A stretch of 64,000 nucleotides of DNA from Chitinophagaceae bacterium (lineage in GTDB: Bacteria; Bacteroidota; Bacteroidia; Chitinophagales; Chitinophagaceae). The notes beneath the pieces are model-generated. The model worked only from the letters and a program-made list of their open reading frames with translations, did no database searches and was not told the origin of the DNA. The position numbers were made by a program, and so were the translations under genes. Below, piece by piece: positions 15,003 through 21,304 of the stretch. Position 1 is the first letter of the stretch. Each line of letters opens with the position of its first letter. The stretch covers positions 124,001-188,000 of the forward strand of contig JALHNJ010000005.1 in NCBI GenBank assembly GCA_022843585.1, written 5' to 3'.

Positions 15003-16790
15003 TTACTCTTCATACAAATCACCTTGCTGTGATAATAAATCCCTGTACTTACCAAACAATTTTGATTTGGAAACAAACCCTATGAATTTTCTCTCTTTGT
15101 TAAGCACTGGCAAATACCAGCTTTGCGTTACATCAAACTTGTCCATTATTTTATGCATGTCATCCTCTTCATGAATAGTAGCAGCAGGTTTTTTCATCAA
15201 TGACTTGATAGTAACTTTTGAAAACTGCTCCGGCTGAAAAAGTTTTTGCTTGATATCATTCAATTCGATAATACCGGCAAAACGTTCTTTACTATCATGC
15301 ACAGCAAAAATATTCTTATCGTTATACTTAATTATTTCAACCAGGTCGCTAAGATTTTTATCAATAGAGATACTAGCATAATTGTCTTGTATAATTTCAG
15401 CCGGTTCAATAGATGTAAGAATATTCTTTTCTTTTTTATGCGTAAATATCTTTCCCTCCAATGCCAGTTTTTTTATTTCCATTGAATAAGGCTCGTATGA
15501 TTTTACAATGAAAAATGAAATGGAAGAAACGATCATCAGCGGAATAAACAATTCATACCCGTTTGTTATTTCAGCAATTAAAAAGATAGCAGTTAATGGA
15601 CAATACATTACACCGCTCAGCACACCAGCCATACCCACTAAGCTAAAATTGCTTACCGGGATTTTAAACCACGGTGTATTATTGATCAATTTTGAAAATG
15701 TAAATCCTAAATATGAACCAGCAAACAGGGAAGGGGCGAAGTTTCCACCATTACCACCGCTTCCAATCGTAATAGCTGCTGCTATCGGTTTTAATAAAAA
15801 GATCAACGCAGTAAATAAAATCAAACCCCAGTTTTCTCCCAGTAGTTCAAACAAACGGGTATTTTCAGTAATGCTGTTCAGATTTTCACCAGCCACTACT
15901 TTTATACTTTCATATCCTTCTCCAAAGAGTGGTGGAAAAACAAAGAACAATGCTGCCAATAAAATGCCTCCGGTCAATGCTTTTAAATAGATGTTTGCTT
16001 TCCATTGCTGCAATTTGTGTTCTGTGCCTTTAAACACTCGGGCATAGTAGAGGGAAACAAATCCTGCTGCAACACCCAGCAAAAGATAAAAGGGCACATT
16101 GGTATAGTCAAATGTTTCCTTTAATTTAAAATTGAAAAGAATAGTTTCTGCCAAAATTATTTTTGAGCAAAGCACTCCAATTACGGAAGAAATTATAAGC
16201 GGAATAAAATAACTGATGACGGTTTCTGTCAATAAAATCTCAATGGCGAAAATTACGCCTGCAATAGGGGCATTAAAAACGGCTGAAATACCTGCAGCCG
16301 CACCGCAGGCTATTAATAAGGAACGTTCAGAATAATTCAGGTCGCTGATGCGGGCAATATTAGAACCAATTGCAGAACCGGTGGATACAATTGGCGACTC
16401 CAATCCTGCGGAACCACCTAGTCCAACCGTAATAGAACTGGTAACTATATGCTGATAGGTATGGCGAAAAGGAATAAAAGAAGAGCCCCTTGCCATAAAC
16501 CGTAGTACCATGGCTATTCCTTTTTCAACGTAACCAGCAAAAAAATACTTGATAATAAAAACAGTAATGATCAAACCGATTGCAGGAAAAAACAGATATG
16601 CAAATTTTGAAACAGGAATCGTTTCGATCGTTTGTTGCAGATAATGCACCAATGTTTTTAAACCAACTGCTGCAAGTCCGGAAAAAAGTCCCACCACGGT
16701 TGCAATAATCATAATGAATTGCACCCGGCTCAGCTTTGTTCGCAACCCTTGAATAATATATTGATAAACCTTCTTAAAGCTTTTGATCAT
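15003..16790 (-). CDS. CLC family chloride channel or H+/Cl- antiporter with CBS pair
   Basis: The 595-residue inner-membrane protein has the CLC transmembrane domain (about residues 25-440) and a C-terminal CBS pair (about 465-590). CLC signatures are visible: GLGGSAGLESP at 124-133 holds the gating Glu131 in place of the usual GREGP block; AAGISAVFNAPIAGVIFAIEILL follows; and GSGGNGGNFAPSLFAGSYLG is the second anion-selectivity segment. The proximal LTETVISYF segment may supply the internal proton glutamate, which favours an antiporter, but this is not certain. The CBS pair suggests nucleotide regulation. It is monocistronic, with a TATCTTTG -7 box 24 bases upstream. Confidence 0.94.
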   Translation of the reverse strand: MIKSFKKVYQYIIQGLRTKLSRVQFIMIIATVVGLFSGLAAVGLKTLVHYLQQTIETIPVSKFAYLFFPAIGLIITVFIIKYFFAGYVEKGIAMVLRFMARGSSFIPFRHTYQHIVTSSITVGLGGSAGLESPIVSTGSAIGSNIARISDLNYSERSLLIACGAAAGISAVFNAPIAGVIFAIEILLTETVISYFIPLIISSVIGVLCSKIILAETILFNFKLKETFDYTNVPFYLLLGVAAGFVSLYYARVFKGTEHKLQQWKANIYLKALTGGILLAALFFVFPPLFGEGYESIKVVAGENLNSITENTRLFELLGENWGLILFTALIFLLKPIAAAITIGSGGNGGNFAPSLFAGSYLGFTFSKLINNTPWFKIPVSNFSLVGMAGVLSGVMYCPLTAIFLIAEITNGYELFIPLMIVSSISFFIVKSYEPYSMEIKKLALEGKIFTHKKEKNILTSIEPAEIIQDNYASISIDKNLSDLVEIIKYNDKNIFAVHDSKERFAGIIELNDIKQKLFQPEQFSKVTIKSLMKKPAATIHEEDDMHKIMDKFDVTQSWYLPVLNKERKFIGFVSKSKLFGKYRDLLSQQGDLYEE

Positions 16791-16813
16791 CAGCTCATTT
16801 CAGTTGATTGGGG

Positions 16814-16821
16814 CAAAGATA
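16814..16821 (-). promoter_or_regulatory. Candidate -7 box (TATCTTTG) of the CLC gene
   Basis: The minus strand reads TATCTTTG 24 bases before the CLC start codon, a perfect TAnnTTTG match. The -33 region has no clear TTG. Confidence 0.45.
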
Positions 16822-16873
16822 GGAAAGCGATATAAAGGCGTATTTCTTGTACGAAATCATCAATATATCAAAA

Positions 16874-16904
16874 TAAAAAACCCCTCTGTGAACAGAAGGG
16901 TTTT
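16874..16904 (-). terminator. Terminator after sigma/anti-sigma pair
   Basis: On the minus strand AAAACCC and TCTGT pair with ACAGA and GGGTTTT with one mismatch, followed by a T run. It lies 27 bases beyond the anti-sigma stop. Confidence 0.8.
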
Positions 16905-16930
16905 ACCGGACTTGAATGATATAGTTATCA

Positions 16931-17461
16931 TCAAGCTTGTTTTCTAAATTCTTTTCTTTTATTACTCAAAAACATATCCAGTAAAAACAATCCCACTACT
17001 ACATTAATCATCATAAATGCATTAACCCAGGTATTGTTGAAAAACTTACTGAAATCTACTTTACTGATATTTTTAGTTAGTGTTGATTCTTCGCCGCCAG
17101 TAAATGTCATTTGCCCGATTCCATAAATAAGAAATCCAATAAACATTGTTATGAAGAAGAACCCTAATCCCCAGATAATTTTTTTATTGATATAGGATTT
17201 TGTAGCAGGCGCAATATGAACTCTTGAAATTTCTTCCATTACATTTTTGCTAAACCGCATAGACGGAGCCTCCAGTTCTGATGCTTGTAATAGCTGATTT
17301 ACCTCCAGCAGTTCCCTGTATTTTTCTTTCCATTCAGCATTGCTTTCAATGAGCTTTTCAATCAGGGTCTTTTCGGTAGCTGTTGCAGTGCCGTCAATAT
17401 AGTTCCAGAGGCGTTCTTCCTGGTTGCCTTGTTCTGGGTTATTATAAGATGTAGTATCCAT
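16931..17461 (-). CDS. Putative membrane anti-sigma factor
   Basis: The 176-residue protein starts 10 bases after the ECF sigma gene ends, on the same strand. The cytoplasmic N-terminus (1-90) resembles anti-sigma domains: ERLWNYIDGTATATEKTLIEKLIESNAEWKEKYRELLEVNQLL is the short-helix arrangement of the zf-HC2-like family, but no zinc-binding His/Cys residues are present. Two hydrophobic segments follow (IIWGLGFFFITMFIGFLIYG and AFMMINVVVGLFLLDMFL), separated by a short external loop, and the end is basic (NKRKEFRKQ). By position and layout I infer that it holds the sigma factor at the inner membrane until a signal arrives. The signal is unknown. Confidence 0.85.
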   Translation of the reverse strand: MDTTSYNNPEQGNQEERLWNYIDGTATATEKTLIEKLIESNAEWKEKYRELLEVNQLLQASELEAPSMRFSKNVMEEISRVHIAPATKSYINKKIIWGLGFFFITMFIGFLIYGIGQMTFTGGEESTLTKNISKVDFSKFFNNTWVNAFMMINVVVGLFLLDMFLSNKRKEFRKQA

Positions 17462-17471
17462 AACGAACTAT

Positions 17472-18056
17472 TTAATTGTAAATATTCTTCACTTCTTCAG
17501 TATAATGTGTTTCCATTTTTTCTTTTAATCTTGTTCTGGCCCGGTGCAAACGAACTTTTGCTGTATTTGTTTCCAAGCCTAAAATTTCCGCTATTTCTTC
17601 CAACGATTGCTCGGCTTTGTAAAATAACGTAATGATTTGGGCATCGTCGCTGCCTAACAGTCCAATTGCATCGTTTACCATTGCCAGTTTCGATTTCTGT
17701 TCTACTATATTTGCCCTCATGCCCGAATCAATATTATCTGCCGTTGCAAATACATGTTCATTATCTAAAGACTGAATGTCCAGCCTTTTCTTTCTTAAAA
17801 ATGTAATGCAGGTATTATTGACAATGGTGTACAGCCAGGTAGTAAATTTTGAAGCCCCCCGGAAATCCGCCAGATATTTATAGGCTTTAATAAATACATC
17901 CTGCGCCACTTCTTCTGCATCCTCCCTGCTTTTTATCATCCGCAGGGTTAAGGTAAATACATAGTTCTGGTAGCGATTTACAATTATAGCATATGCCTGG
18001 TGATCACCACTAAGCACTTTGCTAATGATTTCATTATCATTCAGTCCGGTTGACAT
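17472..18056 (-). CDS. ECF RNA polymerase sigma factor
   Basis: The 194-residue protein has the two domains of group 4 sigma factors. Region 2 spans about 20-90: YAIIVNRYQNYVFTLTLRMI, the DAEEVAQDVFIKAYKYL block for core binding, and FTTWLYTIVNNTCITFLRKK for -10 recognition. Region 4 spans about 125-185: SLEEIAEILGLETNTAKVRLHRARTRL is the helix-turn-helix that reads the -35 element. It is transcribed with the putative anti-sigma gene downstream. Just upstream lies TGTAACC, 14 bases, GTAGTC, the same pair found twice before the divergent gene, so it probably controls itself. The -10 ends only 10 bases before the ATG, so the transcript may be almost leaderless. Confidence 0.95.
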   Translation of the reverse strand: MSTGLNDNEIISKVLSGDHQAYAIIVNRYQNYVFTLTLRMIKSREDAEEVAQDVFIKAYKYLADFRGASKFTTWLYTIVNNTCITFLRKKRLDIQSLDNEHVFATADNIDSGMRANIVEQKSKLAMVNDAIGLLGSDDAQIITLFYKAEQSLEEIAEILGLETNTAKVRLHRARTRLKEKMETHYTEEVKNIYN

Positions 18057-18066
18057 GCACTAATAA

Positions 18067-18093
18067 GACTACAGGGCAACTGTTTAGGTTACA
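18067..18093 (-). promoter_or_regulatory. ECF-type promoter of the sigma gene
   Basis: On the minus strand TGTAACC (18093-18087), a 14-base spacer, and GTAGTC (18072-18067). Both boxes and the spacer length are identical to two plus-strand sites in the same intergenic region. The AAC core of the -35 box is typical for ECF sigma factors. Confidence 0.65.
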
Positions 18094-18201
18094 AGGCAAG
18101 TTACAGCTTTCTTTAGGGGTGAAATGTTGCCTGTTAACTGTTTCTGGTAAGCTTCATATATAATAATAGTAGTGTATTAGTACGAAGCCCAATTGACAAG
18201 C

Positions 18202-18228
18202 TGTAACCTGTCTTAGTAAGTCGTAGTC
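18202..18228 (+). promoter_or_regulatory. ECF-type promoter, distal site before the membrane protein gene
   Basis: TGTAACC (18202-18208), 14 bases, GTAGTC (18223-18228). It lies 117 bases before the start codon at 18345 and 69 bases upstream of an identical site. Confidence 0.6.
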
Positions 18229-18270
18229 TTAGTCTTTGTAAACCGATTCTTTAAAATATTCTTTGTAGGC

Positions 18271-18297
18271 TGTAACCTGTTTTAAGAACCAGTAGTC
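18271..18297 (+). promoter_or_regulatory. ECF-type promoter, proximal site before the membrane protein gene
   Basis: TGTAACC (18271-18277), 14 bases, GTAGTC (18292-18297). Predicted transcription start is near 18304, giving a leader of about 40 bases to the ATG at 18345. Confidence 0.65.
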
Positions 18298-18344
18298 ATA
18301 CAGTATAACAACGAATAAATTACACAACAAAAAAAATAGAAATT

Positions 18345-18725
18345 ATGAACGGCGCAGAAGTTTTAGTACCAGTTACCATGTTTGCAGGTGGATTTGCAAT
18401 GGTATTCGGCATTTATTACCTTAAAACAAGGCAGAACCTGGCGATGATCGAAAAGGGAATGAACCCCAAAGAATTTGCCAACCGTCCAGCGCCTTATAAA
18501 AACCTGAAATGGGCTTTATTGCTGATAGGCTCCGGTATTGGTTTATTCCTGGCTTACTTGCTCGATAATTATGCATTACCAGCAGAAATAAACAAGTTTG
18601 GCCATCGGGGAGATGAAAATGTACCCATCTATTTTGCTTTAATTGCAATTGGCGGCGGCCTTGGATTGTTTGGTTCGTATAAAATAGAAAAGCAATGGTG
18701 GGATGAAAATAAAGACAAAGTGTAA
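18345..18725 (+). CDS. Small membrane protein, DUF6249-like, probable sigma target
   Basis: The 126-residue protein has three hydrophobic segments: VPVTMFAGGFAMVFGIYYLK (8-27), ALLLIGSGIGLFLAYLLD (about 57-74) and IYFALIAIGGGLGLFGSY (about 95-112). A cytoplasmic TRQNLAMIEKGMNP motif follows the first one and a charged WWDENKDK end closes the protein. This layout, with the MIEKG motif, fits the DUF6249 family of small inner-membrane proteins, whose function is not known. It is transcribed away from the ECF sigma operon across a 288-base region that carries two copies of the presumed sigma promoter, so it is the most likely direct target. A strong terminator follows. Confidence 0.85.
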   Translation: MNGAEVLVPVTMFAGGFAMVFGIYYLKTRQNLAMIEKGMNPKEFANRPAPYKNLKWALLLIGSGIGLFLAYLLDNYALPAEINKFGHRGDENVPIYFALIAIGGGLGLFGSYKIEKQWWDENKDKV

Positions 18726-18753
18726 CCAATCCATATAACACACACCTTATCCG

Positions 18754-18784
18754 GCAATCCTGTTTCACAGGGTTGCTTTTTTAT
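18754..18784 (+). terminator. Terminator of the DUF6249-like gene
   Basis: GCAATCCTGT pairs with ACAGGGTTGC (one G:T pair) around a TTC loop and is followed by TTTTTTATTTT. It ends at the stop of the convergent protease gene. Confidence 0.88.
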
Positions 18785-20379
18785 TTTGCAATTACCTCCA
18801 ACGCCTTCTTTACTGAAGCATCACTACTATTAAGCACCTGGAAAAAACCGGAGTTTCTCCATTTGTATCTGGCCAGTAATGCTTTCAGTCTTAATTGCAA
18901 CAGCTCTTTTTCTTTGGCAGAAATTTTTTCTAATGTTGCAGCATCGCCATTCCGGCTTTTCAATAATTCATCCCACAATTCTGCATTACCCGTAAAATTG
19001 ATGGTAAAATCAGAAGACGATTTATATTTTTCAAACAATGTTGTATTCTTCAGGTAGTATTTATACACCGCATTATTAAAATTCCCGCCATTAATTAAAC
19101 GATTGATATTTTGACGTACCAGACTTGTATCAATAGGAACAAAAATACTGGGAGTTATTCCATCGCCACCAAATAAAGTATCTCTGCAAGCTGTTGCAAA
19201 TCTTTTTCCGTTGTTATGTATTTTAATTGAATCAGCAGAAAGCATTTCACCGCTACTAAAACGTTCCCACAATTGATCCATATAAACCTTTTTCCCATTT
19301 TCATACGAACGCTGAATGCTTCGCCCTAAAGGTGTATAATATCTCGCAACAGTTAATCGCATGGCCGACCCATCGCTTAATGAATATTGCTCTTGCACTA
19401 ACCCTTTTCCAAAAGTTCTGCGACCAACAATAGTAGCCCTGCACCAATCTTGCAATGCACCGGCTAATACTTCACTTGCACTAGCAGATAATTCATCAAC
19501 CAATATTACCAATTTGCCTTTTTCAAATAATCCCGGTCTTTTGCAACGGTATTCTCTTTTTTTACTATTGACCCCTTCTGTGTAAACAATTAATTTATCA
19601 CCATCTAAAAATTCATCGGCCATATCCACCGCTTCATTCATAAAACCGCCGCCATTTCCACGCAGGTCATAAATCAGACTTTGCATGCCTTGTTTAATCA
19701 GGTTCTCCATCGCTTGCATAAACTCTTCGTAGCTGTTGTCGGTAAACTTATTTAGCTTAATATAACCGGTGTTCTTATCAACCATATAGGCTGCATCAAC
19801 AGAAGGAACAGGTATAGTGCCACGGGTAACTGTTACCACTTGTGGTTTTCCATTTCTTAAAACATCTAATGCTGCTTTAGACCCTCTTTCGCCACGTATA
19901 TGTTTTTTTATTTCATCAATAGTAAAGGGTTTGCCGGTAAGTGCTGCACCATTTACTTTTATTATTTTATCTCCGATCATCAACCCGGCTTTATCGCTGG
20001 GGCCGTTAGGATTTACGTACACAACATTCACTGTATCAGAAAAAATATTGAACTCAACACCAATACCTTCAAAATTTCCGGCCAGATCTTCGTTGGCTTC
20101 CTGTAATTCAACCGGAGGTAAATAAACAGAGTGGGGGTCAAGGTGAGTCATCATTTCCTGGATGGCTTTGCCTTCTAAAGTGTCAATGCCTACTGAGTCT
20201 ACATATCTCATTTTAATGAGATCAAGAGCTTCTTGTAAAGCACCTCTTTTATTAGAAGAAAAAAAACCTTTACCGCTATTTTTCCCATCATTTATTTTAT
20301 ATCCCAGAAACATCCCGGCTACCATTATTATTGCAAAAAGAAGCGGAAGCCAAACCTGTAATTTTTTATTGCCCATCAT
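18781..20379 (-). CDS. S41 family C-terminal processing protease
   Basis: The 532-residue protein has an N-terminal membrane anchor or signal (about 8-26, VWLPLLFAIIMVAGMFLGY), a PDZ domain (about 90-175: GIGVEFNIF, GPSDKAGLMIGDKIIKVNG), and an S41 catalytic core. The Ser/Lys dyad is in SASASEV and, 25 residues later, the Lys of RTFGKGLVQE. YIKLNKFTDNSYEEF and LIYDLRGNGGGFMNEAVDMADEFL are standard for the CtpA/Prc family. Such enzymes cleave envelope proteins or tail-marked substrates in the periplasm. The family is usually called CtpA, but with several paralogues per genome in this group I leave the symbol open. It is a single gene, divergent from the sugar kinase gene. Confidence 0.94.
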   Translation of the reverse strand: MMGNKKLQVWLPLLFAIIMVAGMFLGYKINDGKNSGKGFFSSNKRGALQEALDLIKMRYVDSVGIDTLEGKAIQEMMTHLDPHSVYLPPVELQEANEDLAGNFEGIGVEFNIFSDTVNVVYVNPNGPSDKAGLMIGDKIIKVNGAALTGKPFTIDEIKKHIRGERGSKAALDVLRNGKPQVVTVTRGTIPVPSVDAAYMVDKNTGYIKLNKFTDNSYEEFMQAMENLIKQGMQSLIYDLRGNGGGFMNEAVDMADEFLDGDKLIVYTEGVNSKKREYRCKRPGLFEKGKLVILVDELSASASEVLAGALQDWCRATIVGRRTFGKGLVQEQYSLSDGSAMRLTVARYYTPLGRSIQRSYENGKKVYMDQLWERFSSGEMLSADSIKIHNNGKRFATACRDTLFGGDGITPSIFVPIDTSLVRQNINRLINGGNFNNAVYKYYLKNTTLFEKYKSSSDFTINFTGNAELWDELLKSRNGDAATLEKISAKEKELLQLRLKALLARYKWRNSGFFQVLNSSDASVKKALEVIAK

Positions 20380-20461
20380 AATTCTTTATTCTGTAATTTG
20401 AACGCAAAATACTGGATTTGAGCGGAACAGGCGTTTCGTTCATCCAAATCAACAAATCTTT

Positions 20462-21304
20462 ATGGCAGTTGTAAAACTGATTGCAGACAGCGGAGCTACC
20501 AAAGCAGAGTGGTGTTTACTAAATAGCGGTAAGAAGAAAACCATTTTTACGCAAGGTATTAGTCCCTATTTCCTCAATACAGAGCAGATTACAGCCTTAT
20601 TGACAAAAGAGCTTCTTCCAAAACTTAAAAATGTTCGCATCGACGAAGTTTATTATTATGGAACAGGCTGTGCCAACCCGGCCAATGCGAAATCGGTTAA
20701 AAAAGCTATTCATAAGATAATACCGGCCAAAAAGATTGAAGTGACACATGATTTGATGGCCGCAGCAAGAGCTTTATGCGGTAGAGAAAAAGGAATAGCC
20801 TGCATACTTGGCACAGGGTCTAATTCCTGTTATTATAATGGAAAGAAGATCATAAAGAATAGCCCCGGACTAGGTTATGTATTGGGCGATGAAGGAAGTG
20901 GTGCCTATCTGGGTAAAAAAGTCATTCAGTATTATCTCTATGGTACATTTGATGAAGAGTTAAATGGAAGGTTTGATAATACTTACCGAACGAATAGTGT
21001 GGAAATACTGGAAAATGTTTATAAGAAGCCATTGCCTAACCGTTATCTCGCAAGCTTTACCAGATTTTTGGCCGATAACCGGGGGCATTATATGATCGAA
21101 AATATAATTGAAGACGGATTAAACGATTTTTTCTTCAGTCATTTATGTAAATACAGGGAAACATGGACTTTGCCCATTAGTTTTGCCGGAAGTGTTGCAT
21201 TTGGTTTTAAAGATGTGTTACAGCAACTTTGTGATAGTTACGAGTTTGAATTAGGTAAGGTGCTAAAAAACCCAATGGATGGGTTAGTAGCTTATCACAA
21301 GTAA
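20462..21304 (+). CDS. BadF/BadG-type N-acetyl amino-sugar kinase
   Basis: The 280-residue protein belongs to the BadF/BadG/BcrA/BcrD ATPase family, which includes N-acetylglucosamine kinase and MurK. The ASKHA nucleotide-binding motifs are present: the phosphate-1 loop ADSGATKAEW (8-17), LGTGSNS (116-122) and GYVLGDEGSGAYLG (138-151). The murQ start is 16 bases downstream, so the two are cotranscribed. By context I infer that it phosphorylates GlcNAc or MurNAc released from cell-wall turnover and passes the 6-phosphate (or 1-phosphate, if MurK-like) to recycling enzymes. The exact sugar and position cannot be read from sequence. Confidence 0.9.
   Translation: MAVVKLIADSGATKAEWCLLNSGKKKTIFTQGISPYFLNTEQITALLTKELLPKLKNVRIDEVYYYGTGCANPANAKSVKKAIHKIIPAKKIEVTHDLMAAARALCGREKGIACILGTGSNSCYYNGKKIIKNSPGLGYVLGDEGSGAYLGKKVIQYYLYGTFDEELNGRFDNTYRTNSVEILENVYKKPLPNRYLASFTRFLADNRGHYMIENIIEDGLNDFFFSHLCKYRETWTLPISFAGSVAFGFKDVLQQLCDSYEFELGKVLKNPMDGLVAYHK

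Follow-up and report, generated by a model that had tools for sequence, protein, structure and literature searches.

Within the window, i.e. the whole stretch of 64,000 nucleotides analysed here, three copies of one promoter-like sequence are located between the gene for an ECF sigma factor and a divergently oriented gene for a small membrane protein of the DUF6249 family. With a probability of about 0.8, these sites are promoters read by the local sigma factor, which would thereby activate its own gene, DUF6249 and targets outside the locus. In the proposed mechanism, a membrane or envelope signal would cause a membrane anti-sigma factor to release the sigma factor, which could then switch on its own operon in a positive feedback, activate the small membrane protein via a tandem promoter pair and, elsewhere in the genome, induce a lipoprotein of the DUF2807 type and possibly a small exported protein. 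The recognition core would comprise TGTAACC, 17 bases, GTC and an A three bases further on. The self-directed mRNA would start 0–4 nt before the sigma ATG in the window, while the leaders of the target mRNAs would extend over tens of bases. For this sigma factor, a literature search returned no description, nor did it find ECF sigma factor, Bacteroidetes and TGTAAC together; the locus would now supply its promoter code, which is conserved, along with a small predicted regulon. It would also give DUF6249, a domain of unknown function that the same search met only in plant work, a predicted regulator and a likely envelope context. A group-level prediction of ECF promoters may already have been published.

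The divergent locus and its conserved sites

The sigma gene (17472..18056, minus strand) encodes a protein of 194 amino acids with Pfam matches to Sigma70_r2 (residues 26–91) and Sigma70_r4_2 (residues 127–177). Region 3 is absent from the Pfam families listed, i.e. the protein displays sigma domains 2 and 4 only, as is characteristic of ECF (group IV) sigma factors, and its nearest solved sequences are those of SigW (the closest), AlgU and RpoE. The gene behind it (16931..17461, minus strand) encodes a 176 amino acid protein that, judging from sequence and model, probably resembles a membrane anti-sigma factor of class I type. Pfam and NCBIfam gave no match for this protein; the sole profile match up to an E-value of 1 is RsiW over residues 5–75 (E 8.9e-4). 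Its structural model (mean pLDDT 78, pTM 0.37) features four helices within residues 9–82 (9–23, 28–40, 42–60 and 68–82), followed by long, membrane-length helices at 93–117 and 143–175. A Foldseek search with the model returned 13 weak matches, all with E above 1, seven of which are anti-sigma entries. The zinc motif Hx3Cx2C, which is optional in class I, is missing together with any cysteine; it is reported as missing in about 44% of class I anti-sigma factors (PMC7406223). On the other side, the predicted target DUF6249 (18345..18725, plus strand; 126 amino acids) matches Pfam PF19762 with 64.2 bits (E 1.2e-17), above the curated cut-off of 33. Its model consists of three helices (pLDDT 79, pTM 0.47), and a fold search gave 71 matches with E up to 10, none of them at or below 0.001. 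A terminator-like hairpin behind the gene (18753..18777, plus strand) was detected by a consensus scan only, with one found versus 0.8 in shuffled sequences, and an Rfam scan of positions 16500–20500 gave no match.

The three sites, TGTAACC-N14-GTAGTC without a single mismatch, all fall within 288 bp. One reads towards sigma (18067..18093, minus strand), with the end of its GTC 10 nt before the sigma ATG, and two in tandem, 69 bp apart, read towards DUF6249, a distal one (18202..18228, plus strand) and a proximal one (18271..18297, plus strand) ending 116 and 47 nt before the ATG, respectively. The earlier note, which was made from the DNA letters, had described this arrangement and its flanking genes correctly, and it was also right that the window holds no further copy, both for the exact string and for TGTAACC-N17-GTCWWA with one mismatch. 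Under an order-1 Markov model, 0.0007 exact matches would be expected in the window. The genome scan that the note had called for returned only these three exact copies in the 4.49-Mb own genome, versus one match for the reversed pattern. Across 97 genomes including the own one, 38 exact matches face 11 for the reversed control, and all but one of the 38 (G025:C13) lie in the sigma/DUF6249 intergenic region or directly before DUF6249. Allowing up to two mismatches does not raise the matches in the own genome above the reversed control (45 versus 115), so that only the exact or a correctly relaxed form is informative; the literal string was dropped as a regulon probe on these grounds.

Relatives of the locus were fetched via the sigma protein (79 loci) and via DUF6249 (27 loci), giving 106 in total, of which four without sigma in the flank were dropped (L050, L054, L056 and L057). 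An anti-sigma relative was detected in 98 of the remaining 102. Seven of the 102 were left out because no divergent DUF6249 was detected or the region exceeded 700 bp (L088, L098, L103, L127, L129, L131 and L136); all seven contain the sigma-directed site, which reads GGTAACC in L103. The other 95 loci, with DUF6249 divergent within 700 bp, collapse to 76 distinct intergenic regions. In these, TGTAAC (one mismatch allowed)-N18-GTC was found 77 times facing sigma and 139 times facing DUF6249, compared with 0–3 matches for each of the other spacers from 12 to 23 and 2.3 matches in total in mononucleotide shuffles. In every one of the 76 regions, each of the two genes is faced by at least one site, the layout (sigma-directed plus DUF6249-directed) being one plus two in 62, one plus one in 13 (mostly the more divergent loci) and two plus two in a single region. 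The alignment of relatives suggested in the earlier note thus reveals boxes and spacing in the entire set; a lack of box conservation, which the note had named as a refutation, was not observed. The tandem DUF6249 sites cluster at distances of 66–70 bp (33/63) and 96–102 bp (11/63); no helical period is favored, the resultant being 0.37–0.38 at periods of 10, 10.5 and 11 alike (n=63).

Position by position, AAC is invariant, the seventh base is C in 97–99% and the base three positions past GTC is A in 99–100%; GTC was imposed by the search, the latter two were not. The GTA ahead of GTC is found at only 65–85% per position, which makes the GTAGTC box a preferred form and not the core. The recognition string proposed in the earlier note therefore proved too strict in its GTA, while its core, TGTAACC-N17-GTC-NNA, is conserved. 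On sequence grounds, form and conservation of the sites fit an ECF promoter with AAC-type −35 and CGT-type −10 elements subject to autoregulation. Conservation alone cannot separate ECF boxes from operators of a DNA-binding repressor or activator, for which the repeated use of one sequence would speak, and nothing else does. Operators are nevertheless highly improbable, as the sites are asymmetric, point towards genes and keep a fixed spacer length with variable spacer sequence, and as they match the general AAC / CGT form described for autoregulated ECF promoters (PMC8103513).

Co-occurrence and candidate targets outside the locus

Among the 97 genomes, 25 encode both sigma (E≤1e-40) and DUF6249 (E≤1e-5). 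Sigma alone was found in none and DUF6249 alone in one (G073), in which DUF6249 is preceded by the site and a sigma-like fragment is encoded on the same contig. With the exception of G073, the sigma-less genomes are uninformative on the DUF6249 promoter, because DUF6249 is missing there, too. Both genes are jointly missing from same-genus genomes of about 1.5–2.1 Mb and present in most, not all, larger ones. In G045, the sigma and DUF6249 genes share a contig and are separated by about 274 kb; DUF6249 retains its tandem pair at a distance of 68 bp, and the sigma-directed site persists at a gap of 9 nt. G046 carries the two genes on different contigs, each with a site, and in two Pedobacter loci two other genes are inserted between them with both sites kept. 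That sites and co-occurrence persist although the genes are unlinked argues for one regulator of both.

This regulator could conceivably be another ECF paralogue, or several with overlapping specificity, which would render the local sigma gene just one of those regulated. The own genome contains 32 first-look candidates for sigma-like genes that could fill this role; against it stands that a site faces sigma as well as its neighbor in all 76 regions and stays with both upon separation. Further evidence bearing on this alternative comes from the targets elsewhere in the genome. For these, the relaxed core TGTAACC-N17-GTCWWA was sought in the 97 genomes, and all 41 off-locus matches were inspected. 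Overall, there is no excess (41 versus 55 for the reversed control), with 23 versus 12 in genomes with sigma and 18 versus 43 in those without, and the case for off-locus targets is made solely by the recurrence of the same genes and not by the number of matches. Among the 23 matches in sigma genomes, 12 precede a DUF2807 lipoprotein, three a small exported protein and two a larger exported protein; the other six are located elsewhere, one of them within a long ORF. Eight of the 18 matches in sigma-less genomes fall inside long ORFs, none precedes DUF2807 and one precedes the small exported protein.

In the own genome, 57 nt separate the DUF2807 site from the likely ATG, and ORFs extending across the site are also present. 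Comparison of the best 30 DUF2807 loci, with spacers of 16–20 and one mismatch allowed, revealed the site in 19 of the 20 genomes that have sigma (G028 being the exception) and in one of the seven that lack it (Fisher p 1.6e-4); most of the DUF2807 genes in the latter seven are more distantly related. The sole sigma-less genome with the site is G012, which is 76% complete. Three genomes (G015, G021 and G027) were left out of this count, because their upstream sequence is truncated by a contig end or by where the match begins; G021 does have a site (L187). Conversely, the off-locus targets read CGTC instead of GTAGTC, as might be expected if a paralogue were involved.

The small exported protein has no Pfam match and is presumably reminiscent of PepSY-like proteins. 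Its site, at G000:C4:237088-237117 (L166, L242) and in the further loci L243–L269, is found before 22 of 23 genes in sigma genomes versus two of five sigma-less genomes (p 0.011), the latter being G012 and G005 with completeness of 76% and 87%. In three near-complete sigma-less genomes (G001, G015 and G018), the promoter retains TGTAAC and carries GTT in place of GTC, as if another ECF sigma factor read it. Furthermore, TAnnTTTG, an element recognized by the primary sigma factor of Bacteroidota (PMC7366714), is embedded in the TGTAAC–GTC site in 20 of 28 promoters of this gene, including those of G001, G015 and G018. Two overlapping promoters, one of which decays after loss of sigma, would look like this; alternatively, a second ECF sigma factor may read GTT. 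Given the DUF2807 site that tracks this very sigma factor and the sites that stay with both genes of the locus, recognition of the sites by a paralogue appears quite improbable, and we infer that the local sigma factor reads them.

With a spacer of 16 (TGTAACC-N16-GTCWWA), the 25 sigma genomes gave 21 matches versus 44 for the reversed control, and the only recurrent targets were DUF2807 (G009) and exported-protein genes (two in G049). In G049 (G049:C6:24332-25355), the small exported-protein gene exists in two tandem copies, each with a site that is one base shorter. In two genomes of the same genus, related exported proteins are preceded by a site at a gap of 16 nt (G022:C5:433245, L178; G032:C15:20084, L183); Pfam gave no match for the part of the protein given.

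The designation of DUF6249 as the prime target in the earlier note thus holds insofar as all 76 regions have sites before it, and needs to be extended by other likely targets outside the operon, namely DUF2807 and the exported protein. A membrane anti-sigma factor in combination with membrane and exported targets suggests an envelope-stress response. One account assigns DUF2807 to a group with Toastrack, a domain found in PSP/Lia envelope-stress systems, and places Toastrack inside the cell (PMC11237479), whereas the DUF2807 protein found here is lipoprotein-like by its N-terminus.

Across the class, DUF6249 was detected by Pfam search in 64 of 296 genomes. Among the best 29 DUF6249 loci outside the window from these 64 genomes, 22 have a site before DUF6249 (three with CGTAAC; L308 and L313 share one identical site sequence) and seven lack it, as compared to a rough chance expectation of about one in 29. 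An opposite-facing site was found in 16 of the 29. A sigma-like gene is encoded in the flank of 28 loci, with an identity of 28–57% that implies that some of these genes are paralogues. A site precedes the sigma-like gene in 17 of the 28, and in 12 of these 17 an ATG follows 8–16 nt past GTC, the exceptions being L308, L313, L316, L318 and L324. The same divergent order was recognized in a Robiginitalea MAG (L136) by reading its ORF. Hence, an autoregulated ECF module of the envelope-stress type probably recurs across the class.

The predicted promoter at the sigma start codon

A feature on which the earlier note had not remarked is that the self-directed promoter-like site lies almost on the sigma start codon. 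In all 76 regions, GTC and the sigma ATG are separated by only 8–17 nt, and by 10–12 nt in 67 of them. In ECF promoters, transcription starts approximately 7–10 nt past GTC. With GTC this close to the ATG, a leaderless or near-leaderless sigma mRNA is predicted, with a leader of 0–4 nt in the window and mostly 0–5 nt in the family. In the 76 regions, most proximal DUF6249 sites are located 31–64 nt before the ATG; the sites of other targets mostly lie 30–95 nt before the coding match, with extremes of 15 nt (G045) and 146 nt (G012), some of these gaps being measured to the start of the match.

The coding start of sigma itself is also constrained. Over the first 14 codons (18015..18056, minus strand), synonymous variation is below that in the rest of the gene, with a mean excess of −0.63 bits that none of 20000 random codon sets reached, the lowest 14-codon window elsewhere being −0.17. 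The start of DUF6249 displays a weaker effect (−0.34 bits; 1/20000), so part of the constraint may be a general start effect. The start of the anti-sigma gene, which served as a control, exhibits none (+0.07 bits), with conserved codons from about residue 10. The preferred sigma start codons, ACC, GGA, ATC and AGC, are not simply A+T-rich, and the predicted folding at the beginning of the sigma mRNA is unremarkable (z −0.01). Coding-sequence start signals compatible with a leaderless sigma mRNA would fit this pattern. Nucleotide conservation between the window and 76 relatives is far stronger over the first sigma codons (ATGTCAACCGGACTGAATGATAATGARATCATTAGC) than over the remainder of the gene. 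An inverted repeat, AATGAT-N6-ATCATT, falls within these codons. A role as an operator was considered for the palindrome TAATGANNTCATTA, located where the sigma coding sequence begins, and rejected, as the palindrome has one other copy in the genome and no excess of near-matches in the window.

The prediction of a leaderless mRNA would be an artefact if sigma were translated from a later start codon or if a second promoter further upstream gave rise to a leadered main transcript. Codon 14 is indeed GTG in 48 of the 73 sequences with valine at this position, and some of the class-level gaps extend to 16 nt, which would allow for leaders as long as about 9 nt. In addition, few mRNAs in the Bacteroidota studied are reported to be leaderless, with about 3.7% of 5’ UTRs in B. 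thetaiotaomicron being shorter than 10 nt (PMC7366714) and leaders exceeding 10 nt in 87% of cases in F. johnsoniae (PMC6847099). A survey with a method that detects Pribnow-type promoters only described leaderless genes in one of 37 Bacteroidetes/Chlorobi genomes (PMC3160421). We nonetheless regard an artefact as unlikely, given that the ATG is found at position 1 in 75 of the 76 regions (in L134, it lies 3 nt further on), that the alignment with E. coli sigma-E begins at residue 1, and that the narrow gap is directly followed by strong nucleotide constraint. The primary-type promoter TTG-N17-22-TAnnTTTG, which could provide a leadered transcript or basal expression of sigma, occurs in none of the 76 regions in either direction; TAnnTTTG alone occurs in 12 and 2 of them, versus 14.3 and 9.3 in shuffles.

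It is a tentative, rather doubtful extension of the near-leaderless prediction that the ECF module is built class-wide such that the self-activating sigma mRNA by design lacks a leader and the target mRNAs possess one. Bacteroidota are mostly devoid of Shine-Dalgarno sites. If the extension holds true, the translation start signal of sigma would sit within its first dozen codons and be constrained at the nucleotide level, sigma would be initiated by another route than its targets, and the feedback loop could be coupled to the state of the ribosome or of initiation factors under stress. The locus may also serve to test leaderless translation in a simple way, within a phylum in which such mRNAs are reportedly rare.

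Comparison with known ECF systems

The pairs SigW-RsiW, RpoE-RseA and AlgU-MucA likewise combine a two-domain sigma factor with an anti-sigma gene behind it and a self promoter of the AAC / GTC type. In contrast to these systems, the locus described here includes a divergent DUF6249 gene with predicted tandem promoters, a predicted promoter placed almost on the start codon, and a putative anti-sigma factor that contains two membrane-length helices and no zinc motif. Within the same phylum, the ECF/anti-sigma pairs EcfO-Reo and Dma from Bacteroides/Phocaeicola respond to envelope stress (PMC13114119, PMC9308784, PMC13088901). Their anti-sigma factors reach the outer membrane with a C-terminal β-barrel, which is missing from the 176 amino acid protein of the window, modelled as all-helical without any strand. 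CirY-CirZ from Phocaeicola vulgatus is a self-activating ECF pair that also has a small regulon of envelope genes; the genes partnered with it are that of the spy chaperone, which is co-transcribed, and two others, and DUF6249 does not occur in the main text of that study (PMC13114119).

What is unusual about the putatively autoregulated ECF pair presented here is the near-leaderless self promoter predicted from its sequence. A leaderless mRNA for an ECF sigma factor is produced from promoter p1 of Mycobacterium tuberculosis sigE. There, the leaderless p1 has a WhiB7 motif, and the SigE/SigH-type promoter is located further upstream (PMC4921905), whereas in the locus of the window the self-directed ECF promoter would itself be the near-leaderless one.
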